From Methanococcoides vulcani (GTDB taxonomy: Archaea > Halobacteriota > Methanosarcinia > Methanosarcinales > Methanosarcinaceae), in contig NZ_FOHQ01000005.1 in the NCBI RefSeq assembly GCF_900111645.1, forward strand, positions 1 through 64,000: a stretch of DNA of 64,000 bases, given 5' to 3'. Below the pieces are notes generated by a model. The model ran no database searches. It was not told where the DNA came from and saw nothing but the letters and a program-made list of their open reading frames with translations. Numbering within the stretch: position 1 is the stretch's first letter; each line of letters begins with the position of its first letter. Positions 11,060-62,686 of this stretch are shown here, piece by piece. The translations under genes and the position numbers were made by a program.

Positions 11060-13381
11060 TCATATCCTGCTATTTTCATTGAATATTATTGTAAAAGCTG
11101 TTCCGGAAGTACGGTCCATAACAATGGTACCACCGATCTGGTCGACCAGAGTTTTCAACAGCTGTAAGCCCAATGAAGTGCTTTTCCTATAGTCAATTTC
11201 CTCCGGGAAACCTATACCATTATCAGTCACGATTAGTATAAATCTATTTTCATCCCCATGCTTTAGATCAATAGAGATCTTACCTGGCATTCCCTGAAAA
11301 GCATGTTTCAAAGAATTGGTGACCAGCTCGTTTATGATGATCCCAAGAGGGATCGCTGTATCCATGCTCAAAAAAATATCCTCGACGTTAAGCTCCAGTT
11401 CAATGTCCTTATCGAGAGAATATGAACTGATAAGTTCAGCTGCGAGCTTCTGGATATAATCAGCAAAATTGATGCTTTCCATATCCGTTGACTGGTAAAG
11501 TTCCTCATGGATCAATGACATCGACATAACGCGGGTCCTGCTCTCCATAAAAGCCTGGACCACGGACGTATCCTCAAACTCCATGGAACAAAGGTCGAGC
11601 AAACTGCAGATTATCTGGAGGTTGTTCTTGATACGATGATGGATCTCCTTTTTGCGCATCACTTCGACCTCCATCAACGCCTTTTCTGCGTTCTTGCGCT
11701 CAGTGAGATCATGTATTGTGATAATTATGCGCTCCTTACCTCCGATCATAGCCGATCTTGCCATGACCTCGGTCCAGAATAGTTCGCCATTCTTTTTCCG
11801 GGCCTGCCATTCAGCACTCACAAAACCATTTTCAGACGCTGAATCGATCAGCCACATGATATTTTCCAATGAGTAGAGAGCCTTGCCCCCCTTAATATCC
11901 TCAGCAGTCCTGCCCAGCACTTCTTCCCTGGAATAACCGGACATATCACAGCCCCTGTCATTGATATCAAGCAATCTGTAATTGTCCCTTTCATGAATAG
12001 TGATCCCATCAAGCGAACCATTGAAAACAACACGATATTTTTCCTCAGAGCTTTTAAGGGCTGCCTCTGCATTCCGAAACTCGGTCACATCCTCCCCGGA
12101 ACATAGCAACCCTGTGATAACGCCTTCAACCGACCTCAGAACTACAGTATGCCATGCAATGATCCGTGCATCACCCACACCTGTTACTATGCTACTCTCT
12201 GAATATTCCAGAATGTTCTTGTCGCCACCCATTAGTTTCGGGAAAGCTTTGCGACCCTGGAAACTGAACTCTTCTGAAAAACCAAGATCATACCATTTTT
12301 TCCCAATAATATCGGATTCGGAAAGACCGAACATCCTGCAACCTTTCCTGTTGATGCTGATCACATTCTGATCACGATCAACTACAAAGATGATCACGCC
12401 AATGATATCCAGATAGTTCTGGAGCTTGTCCTTTTCCTTTTTGAGCATGTATTCGGCATGTTCCCTATCAGAAATATCCCTGCATATGCCAAAATAGACA
12501 TCTTTTCCATCCCATTTTCCCGGGGTCACTTTCACTTCAGCAGGAATAGAAAGCCCATCTTTTGTGATAAAGGAAAGAGAAAATGAAGCATGCTTCTTCT
12601 CACGGACCTCCCTGATGGCTTTCATGACCACATCACGATCATTCTCAGAATGCAAACCTAACAAACCTATAGCGCGCAACTCATCCAGAGTGTATCCAAG
12701 ACGTTCACTTGTCTTTTTGGTGGCATCGATAATATGACCAGTTAGATCTATCACAAAAAAAAGATCTTCAATACTATCGAACAGGTTCTGCAGGTCTTTT
12801 TGCCTTTTTTCCAGATTCAGTTCGGATCTGATCCTTGCAATGAAACCGCCTATCTGTACAGCAATAGCTTCCAGAGAATCCTGAATTTCAGAGGGAAGGA
12901 TATCATGGCTATGCGAAGCAACGTTCAAACTGCCTACAACTTTACCACCATATGTTATCGGAATAATGCCACATCCAAGCAAACCATTTGTAAAAGGATC
13001 AACAGGAATGTTATCCGTAAAATCAAAACACGCCCCATAAAATGGCAAGCCTTTTTCGAGGATCTCATGTTGAAGAGAATCTGAACTATAATGGGAATTT
13101 CTGCGAATGAACTCATCTGAAAGGTTCTTCTGCATTACAAGATAGATCTCATCGGTATTCTCATCTACAAAATATATGCCACCACAATCAACAACCCCAA
13201 TATTAAGGGTCGTTTCCAGCAACCGTTCAAGGCTTGTGAGCAGATTGCTACTGGAACACAAGGCAATGCCTATGTCTCGCTGGATACGCAGCAACCTATC
13301 AGATACAGGAGCATTGATACCACCAACTCCCTTCAGCTCATATTCAGACCTGCCCATACTATTTCTCAAAGAAAAGAACAC
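11060..13381 (-). CDS. Soluble GAF-PAS-PAS-PAS histidine kinase (HisKA_2 type)
   Basis: 773 residues without membrane spans. A GAF domain (about 25-185), three PAS domains (about 195-310, 315-435 and 440-560, each ending with the PAC-type pattern such as [38 protein letters not shown]), then a HisKA_2 phosphoacceptor region ([13 protein letters not shown], His near 578) and an ATPase domain with [19 protein letters not shown] and [14 protein letters not shown]. It should sense a small molecule or redox state in the cytoplasm and phosphorylate the adjacent receiver protein. Start ATG 13381 or the internal ATG at 13357 are both possible. A palindromic AT-rich site lies between it and the divergent carbonic anhydrase gene. 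Confidence 0.92.
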
Positions 13382-13484: not shown

Positions 13485-14108
13485 ATGCCAGAAAACGTTG
13501 AAGCAAATCCTATAACTTCATGGAATCCGGAAAGCAAGCATCCGAATATTTCTAAGACCGCATACATACACCCTCAGGCAACGGTCATCGGTGCAGTTTC
13601 CATCGGCGAAAGAGTTATGGTCGCACCCTATGCCTCCGTAAGGGGAGATGAGGGACAGGATATCAGGATCGATGACCACAGCAATGTACAGGACGCAGTT
13701 GTCCTTCACGGGCGCCAGACCATTGATCAGAATGGCAATCCAATAAAAGAGAATCAGGTAGAAGTTGACGGGGAGAACTATTCGATCTACATAGGAAAGC
13801 GTGTATCTCTTGCCCATCAGGCACAGGTACATGGTCCTGCCGTTGTTTTCGACGATGTTTTCATAGGGATGCAGACATTCGTGTACAAGGCAACGATCGG
13901 AAAGAACTCAGTACTTGAACCAAAAGCTTGCGTGATCGGTGCGAATGTCCCCGAGAACAGATACGTCCCTGCAGGAGTTACCATCACATCCCAGGAAGAT
14001 GCAGACAAACTGCCTGAGATATACGAAGGATACACATTTAAGCACACCAACGCAGAGGTTGTTGAAGTAAACGTAGAGCTGGCAGATGGATACAACCAGA
14101 GGAAATAA
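13485..14108 (+). CDS. cam: Gamma-class carbonic anhydrase (Cam-like), cytoplasmic form
   Basis: 207 residues of left-handed beta-helix repeats, closely following the Cam of Methanosarcina: zinc/iron ligands H75, H111 and H116, R53-x-D55-E56, Q69 in NVQDAVVLH, and N196 near the end. Relative to Cam numbering (recalled, constant offset of 6), the proton-shuttle residue Glu84 is Gln78 here and Glu89 is Asn83, although the loop that carries them is present. There is no signal peptide, so it should act in the cytoplasm, unlike the exported Cam. It hydrates CO2 to bicarbonate or the reverse; the changed shuttle may slow proton transfer. The gene is monocistronic, divergent from the kinase. Confidence 0.9.
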   Translation: MPENVEANPITSWNPESKHPNISKTAYIHPQATVIGAVSIGERVMVAPYASVRGDEGQDIRIDDHSNVQDAVVLHGRQTIDQNGNPIKENQVEVDGENYSIYIGKRVSLAHQAQVHGPAVVFDDVFIGMQTFVYKATIGKNSVLEPKACVIGANVPENRYVPAGVTITSQEDADKLPEIYEGYTFKHTNAEVVEVNVELADGYNQRK

Positions 14109-14125: not shown

Positions 14126-14563
14126 TCAGGGTCCGCTCACGTACGGGTAACCCTCTGCTTTCCATTGGTTGATGCCACCCAGCATGTTATACACATCATT
14201 GTAACCAGCATCAACAAGAATATTGCTTGCTGTGACACTTCTTGCACCTGAACGGCAGTAAACTAATATAGTTCCATCCCGGGCCACCTCGTCCAGCCTT
14301 GAGCTAAGTTCGTTCACATTGATGTTCACAGCACCTTCGATGTGCTCAGTTTCGAACTCATTGACCGTACGAACATCCAGCAGGAAAACTTCCCTGGAAT
14401 CCATCATATTTTTTGCTTCCTGTACAGACACATCCGTGTATCCTGTGGAAGTATCATCCTCATCTACAGGATCCGATATACCAGGATTAGCACAGCCTAA
14501 AATGAGACAGGACACTACCAATATTGCAAAAACCAGTACAATTTTCTCAGAGACCATATTCAT
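14126..14563 (-). CDS. Rhodanese-domain lipoprotein
   Basis: About 145 residues from ATG 14563, which has GGAGGGGG immediately upstream. An N-terminal hydrophobic segment ends in a lipobox-like VSCLILGC, followed by an acidic spacer (DPVDEDDTSTG) and one rhodanese domain with LLDVRT, HIEGAVNI and the active-site loop YCRSGARS (Cys nucleophile). It should be lipid-anchored outside the membrane and may transfer sulfane sulfur. The start overlaps the stop of the DUF2769 gene as ATGA, so the two are translationally coupled and probably act together. Confidence 0.9.
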   Translation of the reverse strand: MNMVSEKIVLVFAILVVSCLILGCANPGISDPVDEDDTSTGYTDVSVQEAKNMMDSREVFLLDVRTVNEFETEHIEGAVNINVNELSSRLDEVARDGTILVYCRSGARSVTASNILVDAGYNDVYNMLGGINQWKAEGYPYVSGP

Positions 14564-14802
14564 GCCCCCTCCCCTCTGCAAAAATAATCACCTTCAAGAG
14601 CGAACTGGCTATAAACATAGCATTCCTTACAGAGACAGCCCGCTTTTTCAGGGACAGGTAACTTGTTCCCCCTTGCACAGAACATATACCCTTCTCCCGG
14701 GGATGATGGACAATGTTTGCAATTACAGGCTTTGGAATGATGGAAGGAAGGGCATATCCCGAAATATTTCCCGCCGATCTTTTCCTCACCACTATCAGAC
14801 AT
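14560..14802 (-). CDS. DUF2769-type small cysteine-rich protein
   Basis: 80 residues with eleven-odd Cys in a regular layout: CPSF, KACNCKHCPSSP, MFCARGN, CLCKECYVY and YFCRGEGA. This matches DUF2769 proteins of methanogens, which carry conserved Cys pairs and end in YFC.xG.A. They probably bind metal or Fe-S clusters; no function is established that I know. The stop codon overlaps the ATG of the rhodanese lipoprotein, pointing to a joint role, perhaps in sulfur handling (inference). Confidence 0.85.
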   Translation of the reverse strand: MSDSGEEKIGGKYFGICPSFHHSKACNCKHCPSSPGEGYMFCARGNKLPVPEKAGCLCKECYVYSQFALEGDYFCRGEGA

Positions 14803-30107: not shown

Positions 30108-31121
30108 TCATCCATCCAGCATGTTGCGAACATAATCCGCTATTGCCCTGCCAACCTCAAGGGTACTGGCAGTCCCACCAAGGTCCGGTGTCGTTATCTT
30201 TTCAAGTATGCTCTTACCTACAGCCTCTTCAACGAGCTCTGCTTCCCTCTGGTAGCCCATCCATTCCAGCATCATCTTCATACTCAGGATAGCTGCGATC
30301 GGGTTTGCAATCCCTTTTCCTGCAATGTCAGGACCACTTCCATGTACCGGCTCAAAGAAAGCATACATGTCACCAATATTTGCACTGGGAGCAAGCCCCA
30401 GGCTGCCTATAAGTGCTGCTGACATGTCGCTCAGTATGTCACCAAAAAGATTGGTTGTGACCACAACATCATACCTCTCAGGATAGGTCATCAGGCTATA
30501 TGCCATGGCATCCACCAGCATATCACTGTACTCCACACCTTCTGACCTTGCGGTCTCACGGCAGACATTCAGGAATAAAGTATCTGACTTCAGTACATTG
30601 GACTTATGAACGATCGTAAGATCATTTCGACGCTCTTTAGCCAGCCGACAGGCACTTTTTGCGATACGCTCTGAACCTTTCCGGGAGACCACCCTTTTCG
30701 TATATGCCACATCATCATGCAGCTCCTCGATGGATGAATACATACCTTCGGTATTTTCCCTCACGATCACAAAATCGAAATCACTTTTCCCGGTCACTCC
30801 TGTAACACCGGGAAGAGGTTTGATCGGACGTATATTCGCATACATATCAAGCTCTTTGCGTATTGTCAGGAGCACACTCTTGTAATTGGGATCCGCTGGT
30901 GTGGTGATCGCGCCAAAAAGAACACAATCACAGCTTTTCAACACATCAAGGTCATTATCATCGATGGCTACCCCGCATTTCTCCCACTTGCCATATCCCA
31001 GCTCAAGCGGAACCTTTTCAATTGGAAGACCAAATGCATCAAGAACCTCTACAGCTGCAGGAATGACCTCCCTGCCGATGCCATCACCTTCGACCACTGC
31101 AACTCTCATTTTTTCAGACAT
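30108..31121 (-). CDS. aksF: Homoisocitrate dehydrogenase-type (AksF) or 3-isopropylmalate dehydrogenase
   Basis: 337 residues of the beta-decarboxylating dehydrogenase family: VVEGDGIGREVIPAA, ANIRPIKPLPGV, VIVRENTEGMYSS, the catalytic Lys in THIVHKSNVL-like TIVHKSNVLKSD, VDAMAYSL, TTNLFGDILSDMSAA and EPVHGSGPDIAGKGIANP. I favour AksF, which decarboxylates homoisocitrate and its longer homologues on the way to 2-oxosuberate and coenzyme B, because the hacB gene two genes upstream has the YLRT loop of homoaconitase. LeuB activity remains possible. The ATG is 3 bases beyond the stop of the unknown gene upstream. Confidence 0.75.
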   Translation of the reverse strand: MSEKMRVAVVEGDGIGREVIPAAVEVLDAFGLPIEKVPLELGYGKWEKCGVAIDDNDLDVLKSCDCVLFGAITTPADPNYKSVLLTIRKELDMYANIRPIKPLPGVTGVTGKSDFDFVIVRENTEGMYSSIEELHDDVAYTKRVVSRKGSERIAKSACRLAKERRNDLTIVHKSNVLKSDTLFLNVCRETARSEGVEYSDMLVDAMAYSLMTYPERYDVVVTTNLFGDILSDMSAALIGSLGLAPSANIGDMYAFFEPVHGSGPDIAGKGIANPIAAILSMKMMLEWMGYQREAELVEEAVGKSILEKITTPDLGGTASTLEVGRAIADYVRNMLDG

Positions 31122-31992: not shown

Positions 31993-32484
31993 TTATTTGT
32001 CCTGTTCTTGTAAAGCCTTACGATGCTCCACAAGGCCACCGTCTGTGAGGATCTCAAGAAGGAAATCCGGAAGTTTGTTGCCCTTGAAATCTTTCCCGTT
32101 CACCCGGACAGTTCCTTCAAGCAGGTCAACTTCCACGATGTCACCATCCTTGCATTCAATATCAGCTTCCATTAAAGGAAGTCCGACATTGATAGCATTG
32201 CGGAAAAAGATGCGCCCGAAAAACTTTGCGACGACACAGGAAACCCCTGCATACTTAAGGGCAAGAGCTGCCTGCTCCCTTGAGGAACCACAGCCGAAAT
32301 TGTTCCCGCCGACCACAACGTCCCCCTTCTCAACCTTTCTGGAAAAATCAGGGTCGATACCTTCCATTGCATGATCAGCAAATACCTGCATATCAGTGGT
32401 CCTGAGATATTTTCCCGGAATGATAACATCCGTGTCAATATCATCGCCAAAAATCCATGCCTTTCCTTTGATCTTACTTTCCAA
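31993..32484 (-). CDS. hacB: Homoaconitase small subunit (HacB/AksE-associated), isopropylmalate isomerase family
   Basis: About 163 residues starting at TTG 32484, chosen because AGGTGA lies 5-6 bases upstream; an in-frame GTG at 32493 is the alternative. Key motifs: [37 protein letters not shown] and [17 protein letters not shown]. The specificity loop reads YLRT, as in Methanocaldococcus HacB (homoaconitase), whereas isopropylmalate isomerase small subunits have YLV(Y/M), as does the second homologue at 63766. It therefore probably hydrates cis-homoaconitate and its longer analogues in coenzyme B synthesis. It pairs with a large subunit encoded elsewhere. Confidence 0.85.
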
Positions 32485-32705
32485 TGTTGTCACCTGTGAT
32501 GTAGGTTTTACATGATAATATTTGTAAGTAGCGGAAAAAAAGAATATGTGACCAGAATCTGAGAACGAGTACGAATCATAAACCAAGTCAAAGGAACTGG
32601 AGCTTAAATTACAGCTTTTTACACCCCGTTACAAAATTTATAAAGATGGTCGCAGAACCCGATCGCTCCTTAAGCACACATCATTATCAAACCAAAAGAG
32701 GTCAG

Positions 32706-42474: not shown

Positions 42475-43617
42475 TTAATAGTTCGCCCTCTTTTGCAATA
42501 GATTTTGATCTATGGGTATCTTGCTTAAAATATCTACGACTTTGGTTCCCGCAGTTCCTTCACCATACGGATTTTTACAGTATTTAACTTTATTTTTGAA
42601 CTCTTCATCAGAAAGGCAATAAAGTATTTTTGCCCTAATGTTTTCTTTTTTGTATGTAGCATCTATAACGTTTTCTGCTCGATCCCTTCCATTTTGACGG
42701 GTGCCAATGTTTACTACTGGTAACTTGAATGAAGCAGCTTCTATGATACCACTACTGGAGTTTCCTACAAGAACACTCGCTATATTCAACAAACTGAGAT
42801 AATCTCTTCGAGGAAGGCTTTTAAACGTTTTTAAGTATGCATTATTCTCATATTTTTGAATTGTATTTATCATACTCCTCCCTCCCGCATCGGCATTGGG
42901 GTATACAAGAATTGTTTGGATTTTTAGATCAAGAGCTGCTTCCAAGGTTTCACGAATCTGAAAAGGAGCGTCCTCTACTTCAAGGGTTACAGGGTGCTGT
43001 AATACCAAAATGATTGGTTGAGACAAATCTAAATCATATATTTCTGCTATTTTTTCAGGTTCTATTAATTTTTCACATAAAACTGAGTCCAACCCAGGAG
43101 CACCAACAACAAAAACCAATTCAGGATCTTCCCCCATTTTGATAATTCTTTTAGCACTCTCTAAATTTGCGGGTAAATGAATATTTGAAAGTTTTGTGAT
43201 TGCATGGCGAGCTAGATCATCTACGGTTGAGCTTATTTCTCCTCCATGTAGGTGGGCCACTGGTATGCTTAGGTATGCTCCTGCAATGGCCCCAGCTAGC
43301 ATTTCCCCCCTGTCTCCCAAAAGCAAAATGATATCTGGTTCTATTTTTTCAATTACATCTGGCATTTTTTGAATTAAAGTCCCAATAAAGTTTAACATAG
43401 ATTCTTTGTCATCTTTGTCATAGGTTGAATCTATTATATGGTATTTGAATCCATCTTTTTTTATTTCATTTATGGTGTTTCCGAATTCATCCATTAAGTG
43501 CATGCCAGTTGCTATTATTTCCAATTGAAGTTCGGGGTGGTTTTGAATTTTATTAAAAGTATATTTCATAAGGCCATAGTCAGCCCTTGTACCTGAAATA
43601 TAGAGAATTTTCCTCAT
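42475..43617 (-). CDS. legG: Hydrolysing UDP-N-acetylhexosamine 2-epimerase (NeuC/LegG)
   Basis: About 380 residues from ATG 43617, whose ATGA overlaps the stop of the synthase gene; a start at 43632 is less likely. GT-B-like epimerase with RKILYISGTRADYGLMK, LLLGDRGEMLAGAIAG, VAHLHGGEISSTVDDLARHAITKLS, VLQHPVT and VLVGNSSSGIIEAASF. NeuC/LegG members release UDP and invert C2, giving the free ManNAc-type sugar for condensation. The presence of this enzyme, not PseG, argues for a legionaminic- or sialic-type product and not pseudaminic acid. Confidence 0.88.
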   Translation of the reverse strand: MRKILYISGTRADYGLMKYTFNKIQNHPELQLEIIATGMHLMDEFGNTINEIKKDGFKYHIIDSTYDKDDKESMLNFIGTLIQKMPDVIEKIEPDIILLLGDRGEMLAGAIAGAYLSIPVAHLHGGEISSTVDDLARHAITKLSNIHLPANLESAKRIIKMGEDPELVFVVGAPGLDSVLCEKLIEPEKIAEIYDLDLSQPIILVLQHPVTLEVEDAPFQIRETLEAALDLKIQTILVYPNADAGGRSMINTIQKYENNAYLKTFKSLPRRDYLSLLNIASVLVGNSSSGIIEAASFKLPVVNIGTRQNGRDRAENVIDATYKKENIRAKILYCLSDEEFKNKVKYCKNPYGEGTAGTKVVDILSKIPIDQNLLQKRANY

Positions 43618-44669
43618 TCTATCATGTTCCACTTAATGGGTTGATCTTTATTTAGATCAACTTTTGTTTTACTTCCTATAATATAATCCCAATGTTTCGG
43701 CTCAATTCCTTTATCTTCCCCGGTTCTTTTGATATCCAACATATATTCTGTGATAACGGTATCGGTTTGGACATCTGCACTTGCGACTATGCTTTTGCGT
43801 ACAAATTTTTTTATTTTTTGCTCTGCAGATGTTGGCTTTTTTCGACCGTCTCCCATTGCATTTTCTATATCTCTTATCCCTTGTACTAAATCCTTTAATT
43901 CAGTTGGATTTAGTGATGCAGAATGATCTGGTCCGGGTAAGTTTTTATCGATTGTAAAATGTTTTTCTACCACACAACTTCCCATTGCAGTAGCTGCTAA
44001 AGATGCAACTATTCCAGGAGTATGGTCTGAAAAACCCACGGGTAATTTATAACAGCACCTTAATGTTTTAATTACGTTTAAATTAACTTCTTCCATCTTT
44101 GCCGGATAGTTAGTAACACAATGGAGCAGTATTATTCCCTCAGAGCCTTCTTTTGCCAATGTAGATAATACTTCATCTATTTCTCCAACTGTAGCCATAC
44201 CAGTAGAAAGAATGATAGGTTTCTTTTTTCTTGCTATATGTTTAAGCAAAGGAATATTTGTAAGCTCCCCAGAAGATATTTTGAAAATAGGGACACTTAC
44301 ACTATCAAGAAAATCGGCACTCTCTTTATCAAATGGACTTGACAAAAAAATTAGATCATGCTCTCTAGCATAACTTGAAAGCTCCATAAACTCGTGTTCT
44401 GTAAGTTCAAGTTTTTTGAGCATCTGGTATTGAGAATCTTCTTCTACTGCTGTGTTTTTCTGATAGTCTGCTTTTTCAGCATCTGGAACCACTAGTTTGT
44501 CTGCTTTAAATGTTTGAAACTTTACAGCATCGACACCAGCATCGACTGCTACATCAATTAATTTTTTTGCTAATTCGAGGCTGCCATTATGATTCACACC
44601 AGCTTCTGCAATGATAAAGCAAGGCGTTCCATTGCCTATAATACGATTCCCTATTTTTATTTTTTCCAT
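43614..44669 (-). CDS. legI: N-acetylneuraminate/legionaminate synthase (NeuB/LegI)
   Basis: About 351 residues from ATG 44669, preceded by GGGGAAA; a TTG 18 bases earlier is less likely. NeuB TIM barrel with CFIIAEAGVNHNGSLELAK, VDAVKFQTFKAD, LSSPFDKESADFL, IFKISSGELTN, ILSTGMATVGEID and VGFSDHTPG, then a C-terminal SAF (antifreeze-like) domain with KKFVRKSIVASADVQ. It condenses the 6-carbon N-acyl sugar with phosphoenolpyruvate into a nonulosonic acid. Overlap with the epimerase gene confirms coupling. Confidence 0.92.
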   Translation of the reverse strand: MEKIKIGNRIIGNGTPCFIIAEAGVNHNGSLELAKKLIDVAVDAGVDAVKFQTFKADKLVVPDAEKADYQKNTAVEEDSQYQMLKKLELTEHEFMELSSYAREHDLIFLSSPFDKESADFLDSVSVPIFKISSGELTNIPLLKHIARKKKPIILSTGMATVGEIDEVLSTLAKEGSEGIILLHCVTNYPAKMEEVNLNVIKTLRCCYKLPVGFSDHTPGIVASLAATAMGSCVVEKHFTIDKNLPGPDHSASLNPTELKDLVQGIRDIENAMGDGRKKPTSAEQKIKKFVRKSIVASADVQTDTVITEYMLDIKRTGEDKGIEPKHWDYIIGSKTKVDLNKDQPIKWNMIE

Positions 44670-61402: not shown

Positions 61403-62686
61403 ATGATAAAACTAAAGGATGATGTTCAAGCCGGCGTGGTCAAAAAGCGCTATATACTCGGCAGAAGGGACGAGAACGAAGAGGGAGTGCTTCATATTGG
61501 CAGATACCTCGCCCTTGACAGGTCTTCAGGATCACATGTCGCCATTGATGCATTAAAACCACACGCGATCCTGATATGCGGGAAAAGGGGCTATGGAAAA
61601 TCCTATACCATGGGGACCCTCATCGAGGAGATCGCACTTTTGCCCCAGGAGATCAGGCAGAATGTCGCATCCCTTGTTATCGACACAATGGGAATATTCT
61701 GGACACTTGGAAGAGGTAATAATCCCCAGGCAGAGCTGCTGCAGGAATGGAATATGGAACCGGCAGGATTCAATGCAGAGGTCTTTGTGCCTGCAGGTCA
61801 TGTGGATGAGTATAAGGAAAGGCATATCGAAGTGAAGCCGTTCTCGATCCCTGTGGCACATTTACATGGTTATGACTGGTGTGAACTTTTCAACATAGAA
61901 GTGACATCTCCGCTGGGAGTGCTTCTGGTCAGGATAATAGAGGAGATGCGGGAAAATGAAGGGAACTTTTCCTTCGGAGATATCATTAACAGGATCAACG
62001 CGGACGACAGGACGGATGATGTTACGAAAATGGCAGCTGAGAACTATTTGAGGACCGCTGCCTCATGGGGAGTTTTTGAAAAGGATGCCTGCGGAATTTC
62101 CGAACTTATCAAACGCGGATGCACATCAGTACTTGATGTGAGCGCTATCGAGAACAAGATCGTACGCTCTGCGGTAGTGGGGATCATTGCAAGAGATATC
62201 TATACCAGACGTTTGCAGGAAAGGCGTTCTTATGAGAGAATGATCATGGGCGATGAGGAGATCGAGCAGAAGATGCCCATGGTCTGGATGTTCATCGATG
62301 AAGCCCACCTGTTCGTGCCTTCAAAAGGAGAGACTTTAGCATCAGACGTCCTTATCAACGAGTGGGTGCGACAGGGAAGGCAACCGGGACTATCAATCAT
62401 CTTTGCAACCCAGCGACCTGCGGCACTGCATCCGGACATTATATCCCAGTCCGACATTGTGATATGCCACAGGCTCACTGCAAGAGATGATATTGAGGCA
62501 CTGGAAGCCATCCGTCCGACATACATGAAAGAGAACATAGGGGATGCCATCAGGAAGATGGGACTGGAGAGAGGCATAGCATTCGTTGTAGATGATACGT
62601 CAGAGAGCACACACCTTGTGAAGATCAGGCCAAGATACAGCTGGCATGGCGGGAACGAGCCAAGTGCATTGAATGAAAGGAGATGA
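61403..62686 (+). CDS. HerA-like hexameric ATPase (DUF87)
   Basis: 427 residues. Walker A is ICGKRGYGKSYTMGTL, Walker B is MVWMFIDEAHLFVP, with the sensor IFATQRPAALHPDI and the arginine-rich RLTARDDIEALEAIRPT. The N-terminal part (residues 1-50) looks like a short beta barrel (HAS type). It belongs to the HerA/FtsK-like DNA translocases of archaea; no NurA nuclease gene is adjacent, so the role could differ. ATGA overlap with an alternative start of the next gene shows tight packing. Confidence 0.88.
   Translation: MIKLKDDVQAGVVKKRYILGRRDENEEGVLHIGRYLALDRSSGSHVAIDALKPHAILICGKRGYGKSYTMGTLIEEIALLPQEIRQNVASLVIDTMGIFWTLGRGNNPQAELLQEWNMEPAGFNAEVFVPAGHVDEYKERHIEVKPFSIPVAHLHGYDWCELFNIEVTSPLGVLLVRIIEEMRENEGNFSFGDIINRINADDRTDDVTKMAAENYLRTAASWGVFEKDACGISELIKRGCTSVLDVSAIENKIVRSAVVGIIARDIYTRRLQERRSYERMIMGDEEIEQKMPMVWMFIDEAHLFVPSKGETLASDVLINEWVRQGRQPGLSIIFATQRPAALHPDIISQSDIVICHRLTARDDIEALEAIRPTYMKENIGDAIRKMGLERGIAFVVDDTSESTHLVKIRPRYSWHGGNEPSALNERR

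Follow-up and report, generated by a model that had tools for sequence, protein, structure and literature searches.

The window analysed here, 64,000 nt from a contig of Methanococcoides vulcani, contains an open reading frame that runs from an ATG to a TAA and encodes a gamma carbonic anhydrase of the Cam clade (Table 1). The product matches NCBIfam NF040597, an equivalog family for carbonic anhydrase, at 381.2 bits, barely above the curated cut-off of 380, and with HMMER its residues 4–205 align to the PDB chains of Methanosarcina thermophila Cam with zero gaps (E about 4e-79). It shares 118 of 202 residues with the Cam protein in row L031 of our alignment, which, judged by eye, equals PDB chain 1qrf over the same 202 positions. 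The predicted fold matches the Cam crystal structures with a best Z of 28.4 (rmsd 2.3 over 181 residues). The model has a mean pLDDT of 72.8 and drops below 50 at residues 1–17, 30–32, 54–56 and 187–207, and is therefore uninformative on the placement of Glu56 and Glu194.

Table 1. Features of the carbonic anhydrase gene and its neighbours in the window. Subclades are named after the residue that occupies the Cam Glu84 column.
Feature	Position	Strand	Basis or distribution
PAS/GAF histidine kinase neighbour	11060..13381	-	beside the gene in 6/6 of the Gln subclade
Cam-clade gamma carbonic anhydrase, 207 aa, no signal peptide	13485..14108	+	profile, structure matches, alignment
His75 codon, metal ligand (Cam His81)	13707..13709	+	alignment
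Formerly acidic loop (Cam 83-96), RQTIDQNGNPIKEN, net charge 0	13713..13754	+	charge count
CAG for Gln78, at Cam Glu84; five congeners have AAG (Lys)	13716..13718	+	alignment
CAG, Gln91 (Cam 97); in-frame TAG in 5/5 orthologues of the Lys84 subclade	13755..13757	+	
His111 to His116, metal ligands (Cam His117, His122)	13815..13832	+	alignment
GAA, Glu194 in the Tyr200 column; Asn196 two codons further	14064..14066	+	alignment
Rhodanese-domain protein, convergent neighbour	14126..14581	-	beside the gene in 11/11 congeners, partial match in L011

We compared the active site with that of Cam residue by residue. The original prediction held that the metal ligands, Glu56, Gln69 and Asn196 match Cam at a constant offset, and this was borne out with an offset of 6: His75, His111 and His116 correspond to Cam His81, His117 and His122, and Arg53, Asp55, Glu56, Asn67, Gln69, Asn196 and Trp13 to identical Cam residues. 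Its second claim, that Cam Glu84 and Glu89 are replaced by Gln78 and Asn83 in a loop that is otherwise kept, also stands, since the loop aligns without gaps and no loop glutamate falls in the Glu84 position; in addition, Gln82 takes the place of Glu88. Misalignment of the loop was ruled out, as it was free of gaps under all six scoring settings used to align the protein with L031, and the whole alignment under five; the sixth placed gaps only near residue 190. Two differences had escaped the original prediction. Tyr200 of Cam is replaced by Glu194, and the net charge of the loop, with its limits of 83–96 taken from the accessible part of PMC4519908, changes from -6 in L031 to 0.

Of the features that define the Cam subclass, the protein has the three histidine ligands (81, 117 and 122 in Cam numbering), Glu62, Gln75, Asn73, Asn202, Arg59 and Asp61, as well as the long loop after strand beta10, whose length is kept but whose acidity is not. 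It lacks the proton-shuttle Glu84 and a signal peptide like that of the M. thermophila enzyme (the extension in L031). Absence of Glu84 agrees with CamH, presence of the loop does not. Judged by sequence, the protein is thus no canonical Cam by its shuttle and no CamH by its loop.

Next, we surveyed relatives of the gene, leaving bacterial Cam proteins aside. Matches at 1e-10 were found in 122 of 185 genomes of the order; by our count 62 of these fell below 1e-40, and the remainder were weaker and mostly short-loop relatives. In a sample of the phylum, 35 of 392 genomes matched at 1e-35. Plasmid records gave 10 matches, every one below 60% identity, and a scan of genome contigs found no close relative, with a single locus at 26%. 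Only tblastn matches with E < 1e-25 were aligned, so the row set excludes the weak homologues from the window's own genome and L034. After removal of rows with fewer than 160 aligned residues (L065, L066 and a degenerate copy in L042) and with identical sequences counted once, 76 rows remained, 68 loop-bearing and 8 short-loop, the latter a selection from the many matches in the order-wide search. Several rows were unusual in themselves. L052 (genome G022) has three tandem Cam domains in a single open frame of 729 aa and L054 (G011) two in a frame of 437 aa; the degenerate second copy in L042 has Lys for Gln75 and Asn for His117, and L058, with two in-frame TAG codons and Trp for Arg59, is perhaps a decaying gene. 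The short-loop rows L067–L070, which have no signal peptide, carry Glu in the Glu84 column together with Glu62, which departs from how CamH is usually described.

The gene is present in all 11 genomes of the genus that were examined, and Glu84 in none. The residue is Gln in six (L001, L005–L009) and Lys in five (L010–L014), so the replacement is fixed in the window protein's own subclade (6/6) and differs in the sister subclade (5/5), which rules out a sequencing error or a lone change. The metal ligands and Glu62, Gln75, Asn73 and Asn202 (Cam numbering) are unchanged in the alignment of all 11. Both subclades are under purifying selection: in both gene halves pN is below pS in every pair compared (15 of 15 in the Gln subclade, 10 of 10 in the Lys subclade).

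The protein was also predicted to lack a signal peptide, and this could be settled from the upstream DNA. In-frame TAA and TAG codons precede the ATG, with 9 codons between the stops and the ATG, and the same arrangement is found in the five nearest relatives. A missed upstream start is thereby ruled out and a signal peptide cannot be added, so the protein is probably cytoplasmic. Cam relatives outside the genus mostly carry an N-terminal extension with a hydrophobic stretch and, by eye, mostly a lipobox-like Cys. As a proxy, and not as a signal-peptide prediction, we scored a long N-terminal extension where at least 38 open codons lay upstream. By this measure Glu84 occurs in 52 of 52 rows with the extension (three of them inner tandem domains, two from L052 and one from L054) versus 3 of 16 loop-bearing rows without it, a contrast that comes down to one change of location, two changes of residue 84 and one independent pair, too few for a statistical link. 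The 16 comprise 3 Glu, 7 Gln, 5 Lys and 1 Met. The seventh Gln is in L062, from a different genus, and its two sister rows have Glu; the loop of L097, the Met row, is shorter, so its alignment at this column is unsure.

Variation in the Tyr200 column raises the question of a substitute shuttle. Tyr or His is found in 49 of the 52 extension rows (Asp in two, a gap in one), versus Glu in all six Gln-subclade rows, and excerpts of PMC4519908 describe Tyr200 and Trp19 as adjacent to the Cam active site and as fine-tuning catalysis. Another residue such as Glu194 could thus have taken over from Glu84. We regard this as improbable: the column holds Ser in all five Lys-subclade rows, so that a Glu194 shuttle cannot apply to the whole genus, and Glu, Lys or Arg in the 8 short-loop rows, so that a charge at this position may be ancestral.

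The loop itself suggests a second possibility. Its net charge lies between -1 and -7 in the 52 extension rows and is 0 in the Gln subclade and +2 in the Lys subclade, and outside the loop the proteins of both subclades are still acidic. A charge shift of the loop as a whole, together with a residue 84 fixed inside each subclade, would be expected if Gln or Lys at 84 and a neutral or basic loop had been selected for a cytoplasmic buffer, salt or reaction direction, in line with the suggestion in the original prediction that the protein may be tuned for a different buffer or rate. The two subclades differ in the residue, however, and one of them has a TAG codon directly after the loop; a weakened requirement for the shuttle explains the data just as well, and we hold such adaptive tuning to be rather unlikely.

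In phylogenetic trees the 11 congener rows form one clade (support 99/94, and 98 in a 73-row tree built without the long branches L097, L072 and L064), which splits into two well-supported halves. They belong to the Cam clade and are separate from the 8 short-loop rows included. Relative to the latter they branch early in Cam, with weak support (84/79; 49 and 51 in the 73-row tree). In the 73-row tree the rows without the extension are basal and the others form one clade, with support of 91 (not starred); monophyly of the rows without the extension was not rejected (p-AU 0.53). Parsimony on the 73-row tree, with Gln and Lys coded as one state and the Met row L097 excluded, gave two changes from Glu84 inside Cam and one change of location. 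The trait therefore looks derived, and the genus has probably lost Glu84, although the congeners may instead be an early Cam branch that never had it. The original prediction had described the protein as intermediate between Cam and CamH. The replacement of Glu84 agrees with that description; the full loop, the position in the Cam clade and the apparently derived state of the trait do not.

The surroundings of the gene, compared over 1.5-kb flanks, show that the carbonic anhydrase genes of the 11 congeners are orthologous and occupy one syntenic locus. Besides the rhodanese-domain gene, a fibrillarin-like gene lies on the 3’ side in all 11, and the shared locus makes horizontal transfer into one subclade unlikely. 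In all five members of the Lys subclade, response-regulator and HAD genes adjoin on the 5’ side; in the window they lie beyond the kinase. The histidine kinase is absent beside the Lys84 genes, with its response regulator left and a remnant match in L011 only (1/5). None of the 11 congeners has a match to beta-class carbonic anhydrase (9 of 14 control genomes do) or to the alpha class (1 of 14 does). Three weaker gamma-type matches, at two places, are present in the window's genome, so the gene need not be its sole carbonic anhydrase.

The five Lys84 genes (L010–L014) share a further peculiarity: all have an in-frame TAG at codon 91, directly after the loop, where the six Gln84 genes have CAG, one base from TAG. 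All 10 pairs of the Lys subclade show pN < pS on the 5’ as well as the 3’ side of the TAG, which makes a true stop and a truncated gene unlikely. A PylS match above the cut-off was found in all 11 congeners, compared with 1 of 14 controls, and tRNA-Pyl adjoins PylS in each of the 8 loci scanned out of 11, which cover all five Lys84 genomes. We also compared the window with 200 kb of genome G091, which contains matches for 50 window ORFs, 8 of them with stops. Five of these 8 were examined by codon and gave four TAG and one TAA, so at least 4 of the 50 matched ORFs, the carbonic anhydrase among them, carry an in-frame TAG in G091. The other three are a weakly HerA-like protein (window 61403–62686, match L107), a UDP-GlcNAc 2-epimerase (42475–43632, match L105) and an isopropylmalate/isohomocitrate dehydrogenase-like protein (30108–31121, match L104, TAG at residue 25); the TAG sites vary among these three. 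The TAA lies at residue 22 in the match of ORF 31993–32586, ahead of the family match at residue 41, and is thus perhaps 5’ of the true start. The remaining three stop-bearing matches (20983, 18249 and 14319) each overlap an ORF on the opposite strand. Among mechanically called ORFs, TAG is the terminator of 4 of 57 in the window and of 7 of 176 in the G091 stretch.

Taken with the constraint past the TAG, the presence of PylS and tRNA-Pyl and the few ORFs that end in TAG, this leads us to predict that TAG is at least partly a sense codon, with pyrrolysine as its simplest reading. In a report from 2025, some archaea are said to decode all TAG codons as pyrrolysine. Full reassignment in such archaea is countered by the accessible part of PMC2933860, where UAG apparently acts as both sense and stop, a reporter in M. 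acetivorans is apparently read through at 20–30%, and pylB of M. burtonii terminates with TAG. The column of codon 91 is variable among the aligned relatives, so the presence of pyrrolysine there may be neutral, as in the Thg1 example given in excerpts of the same paper. It is very improbable, in our estimate, that the sister subclade's predicted pyrrolysine, at Cam position 97, acts in catalysis or proton transfer as a 22nd amino acid near the active site.

Loss of three loop glutamates and Tyr200, together with an in-frame TAG in five orthologues, might also indicate that carbonic anhydrase activity is lost or waning and that the gene encodes a decaying or repurposed hexapeptide protein. We consider this quite unlikely in view of the ligands and first-step residues retained in all 11 congeners, the constraint on either side of the TAG and the presence of tRNA-Pyl.

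We suggest instead, with moderate confidence, that the gene encodes a Cam-clade gamma carbonic anhydrase that is active in the cytoplasm and releases protons to solvent or cytoplasmic buffers, or by way of Glu56 or a different residue. Hydration of CO2 at the metal site (His75, His111 and His116 with Glu56, Gln69, Asn67 and Asn196) should be intact, and attack of the metal-hydroxide on CO2 should be normal; with the surface relay of Glu84, Glu88 and Glu89 gone, protons would have to leave by one of these other routes. By analogy with the E84Q and E84K variants of Cam, we would expect a near-normal kcat/Km and a lower, buffer-dependent kcat. Tripp and Ferry reportedly found in 2000 that these variants lost much kcat and little kcat/Km and that imidazole rescued them. 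The enzyme would need an outside buffer, which the cytoplasm would supply. We infer from the sequences that the protein is probably active, cytoplasmic and dependent on buffer, and that life in the cytoplasm may have made the shuttle dispensable. Several observations count against this explanation: Glu84 is retained in three rows without the extension (L047, L048 and L049); Glu occupies the Glu84 column of the short-loop rows L067–L070, in which that column adjoins a long gap; and Glu62 and Glu84 serve rate-limiting proton transfer in Cam according to excerpts of PMC4519908. The strict conservation of Glu84 is debated, however, and Cam variants with Asp or His at 84 are active, as stated in the accessible part of PMC7199487.

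Comparison with known systems helps to place the protein. It resembles M. thermophila Cam (PDB 1THJ, 1QRG) in its fold, equal loop length and 58% identity, with identical metal ligands and first-step residues, but it is without Glu84, Glu88, Glu89, Tyr200 and the signal peptide. With CamH, as described in excerpts of PMC4519908, it shares the absence of Glu84, and with the 8 short-loop rows a charged residue in the Tyr200 column; unlike CamH, it has the loop, and in the tree it does not group with the short-loop rows. The two substitutions of the E84Q and E84K variants of Cam occur naturally in this genus, although the natural proteins have extra loop changes and no signal peptide. The sister genes recall the tRNA-His guanylyltransferase of M. 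acetivorans, an in-frame amber codon outside the methylamine methyltransferases (Heinemann 2009, as cited in the accessible part of PMC2933860), but here the gene is for a carbonic anhydrase, the TAG is found in all five species of the subclade and pyrrolysine is only predicted. Among the titles listed in a search of mainly non-subscription literature, none dealt with Cam of Methanococcoides or with a pyrrolysine-containing carbonic anhydrase.

Altogether, the protein is a genuine natural member of the Cam clade that is fixed in its lineage and lacks the shuttle glutamate. Gln or Lys at position 84 throughout a genus, with an unchanged active-site core, amounts to a natural experiment on the need for Glu84, and it provides ready-made proteins for asking when a carbonic anhydrase can dispense with an internal shuttle. 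It also bears on whether loss of the shuttle accompanies life in a buffered cytoplasm. Finally, the sister genes offer a testable prediction, pyrrolysine in a carbonic anhydrase, which is the part most likely to surprise.
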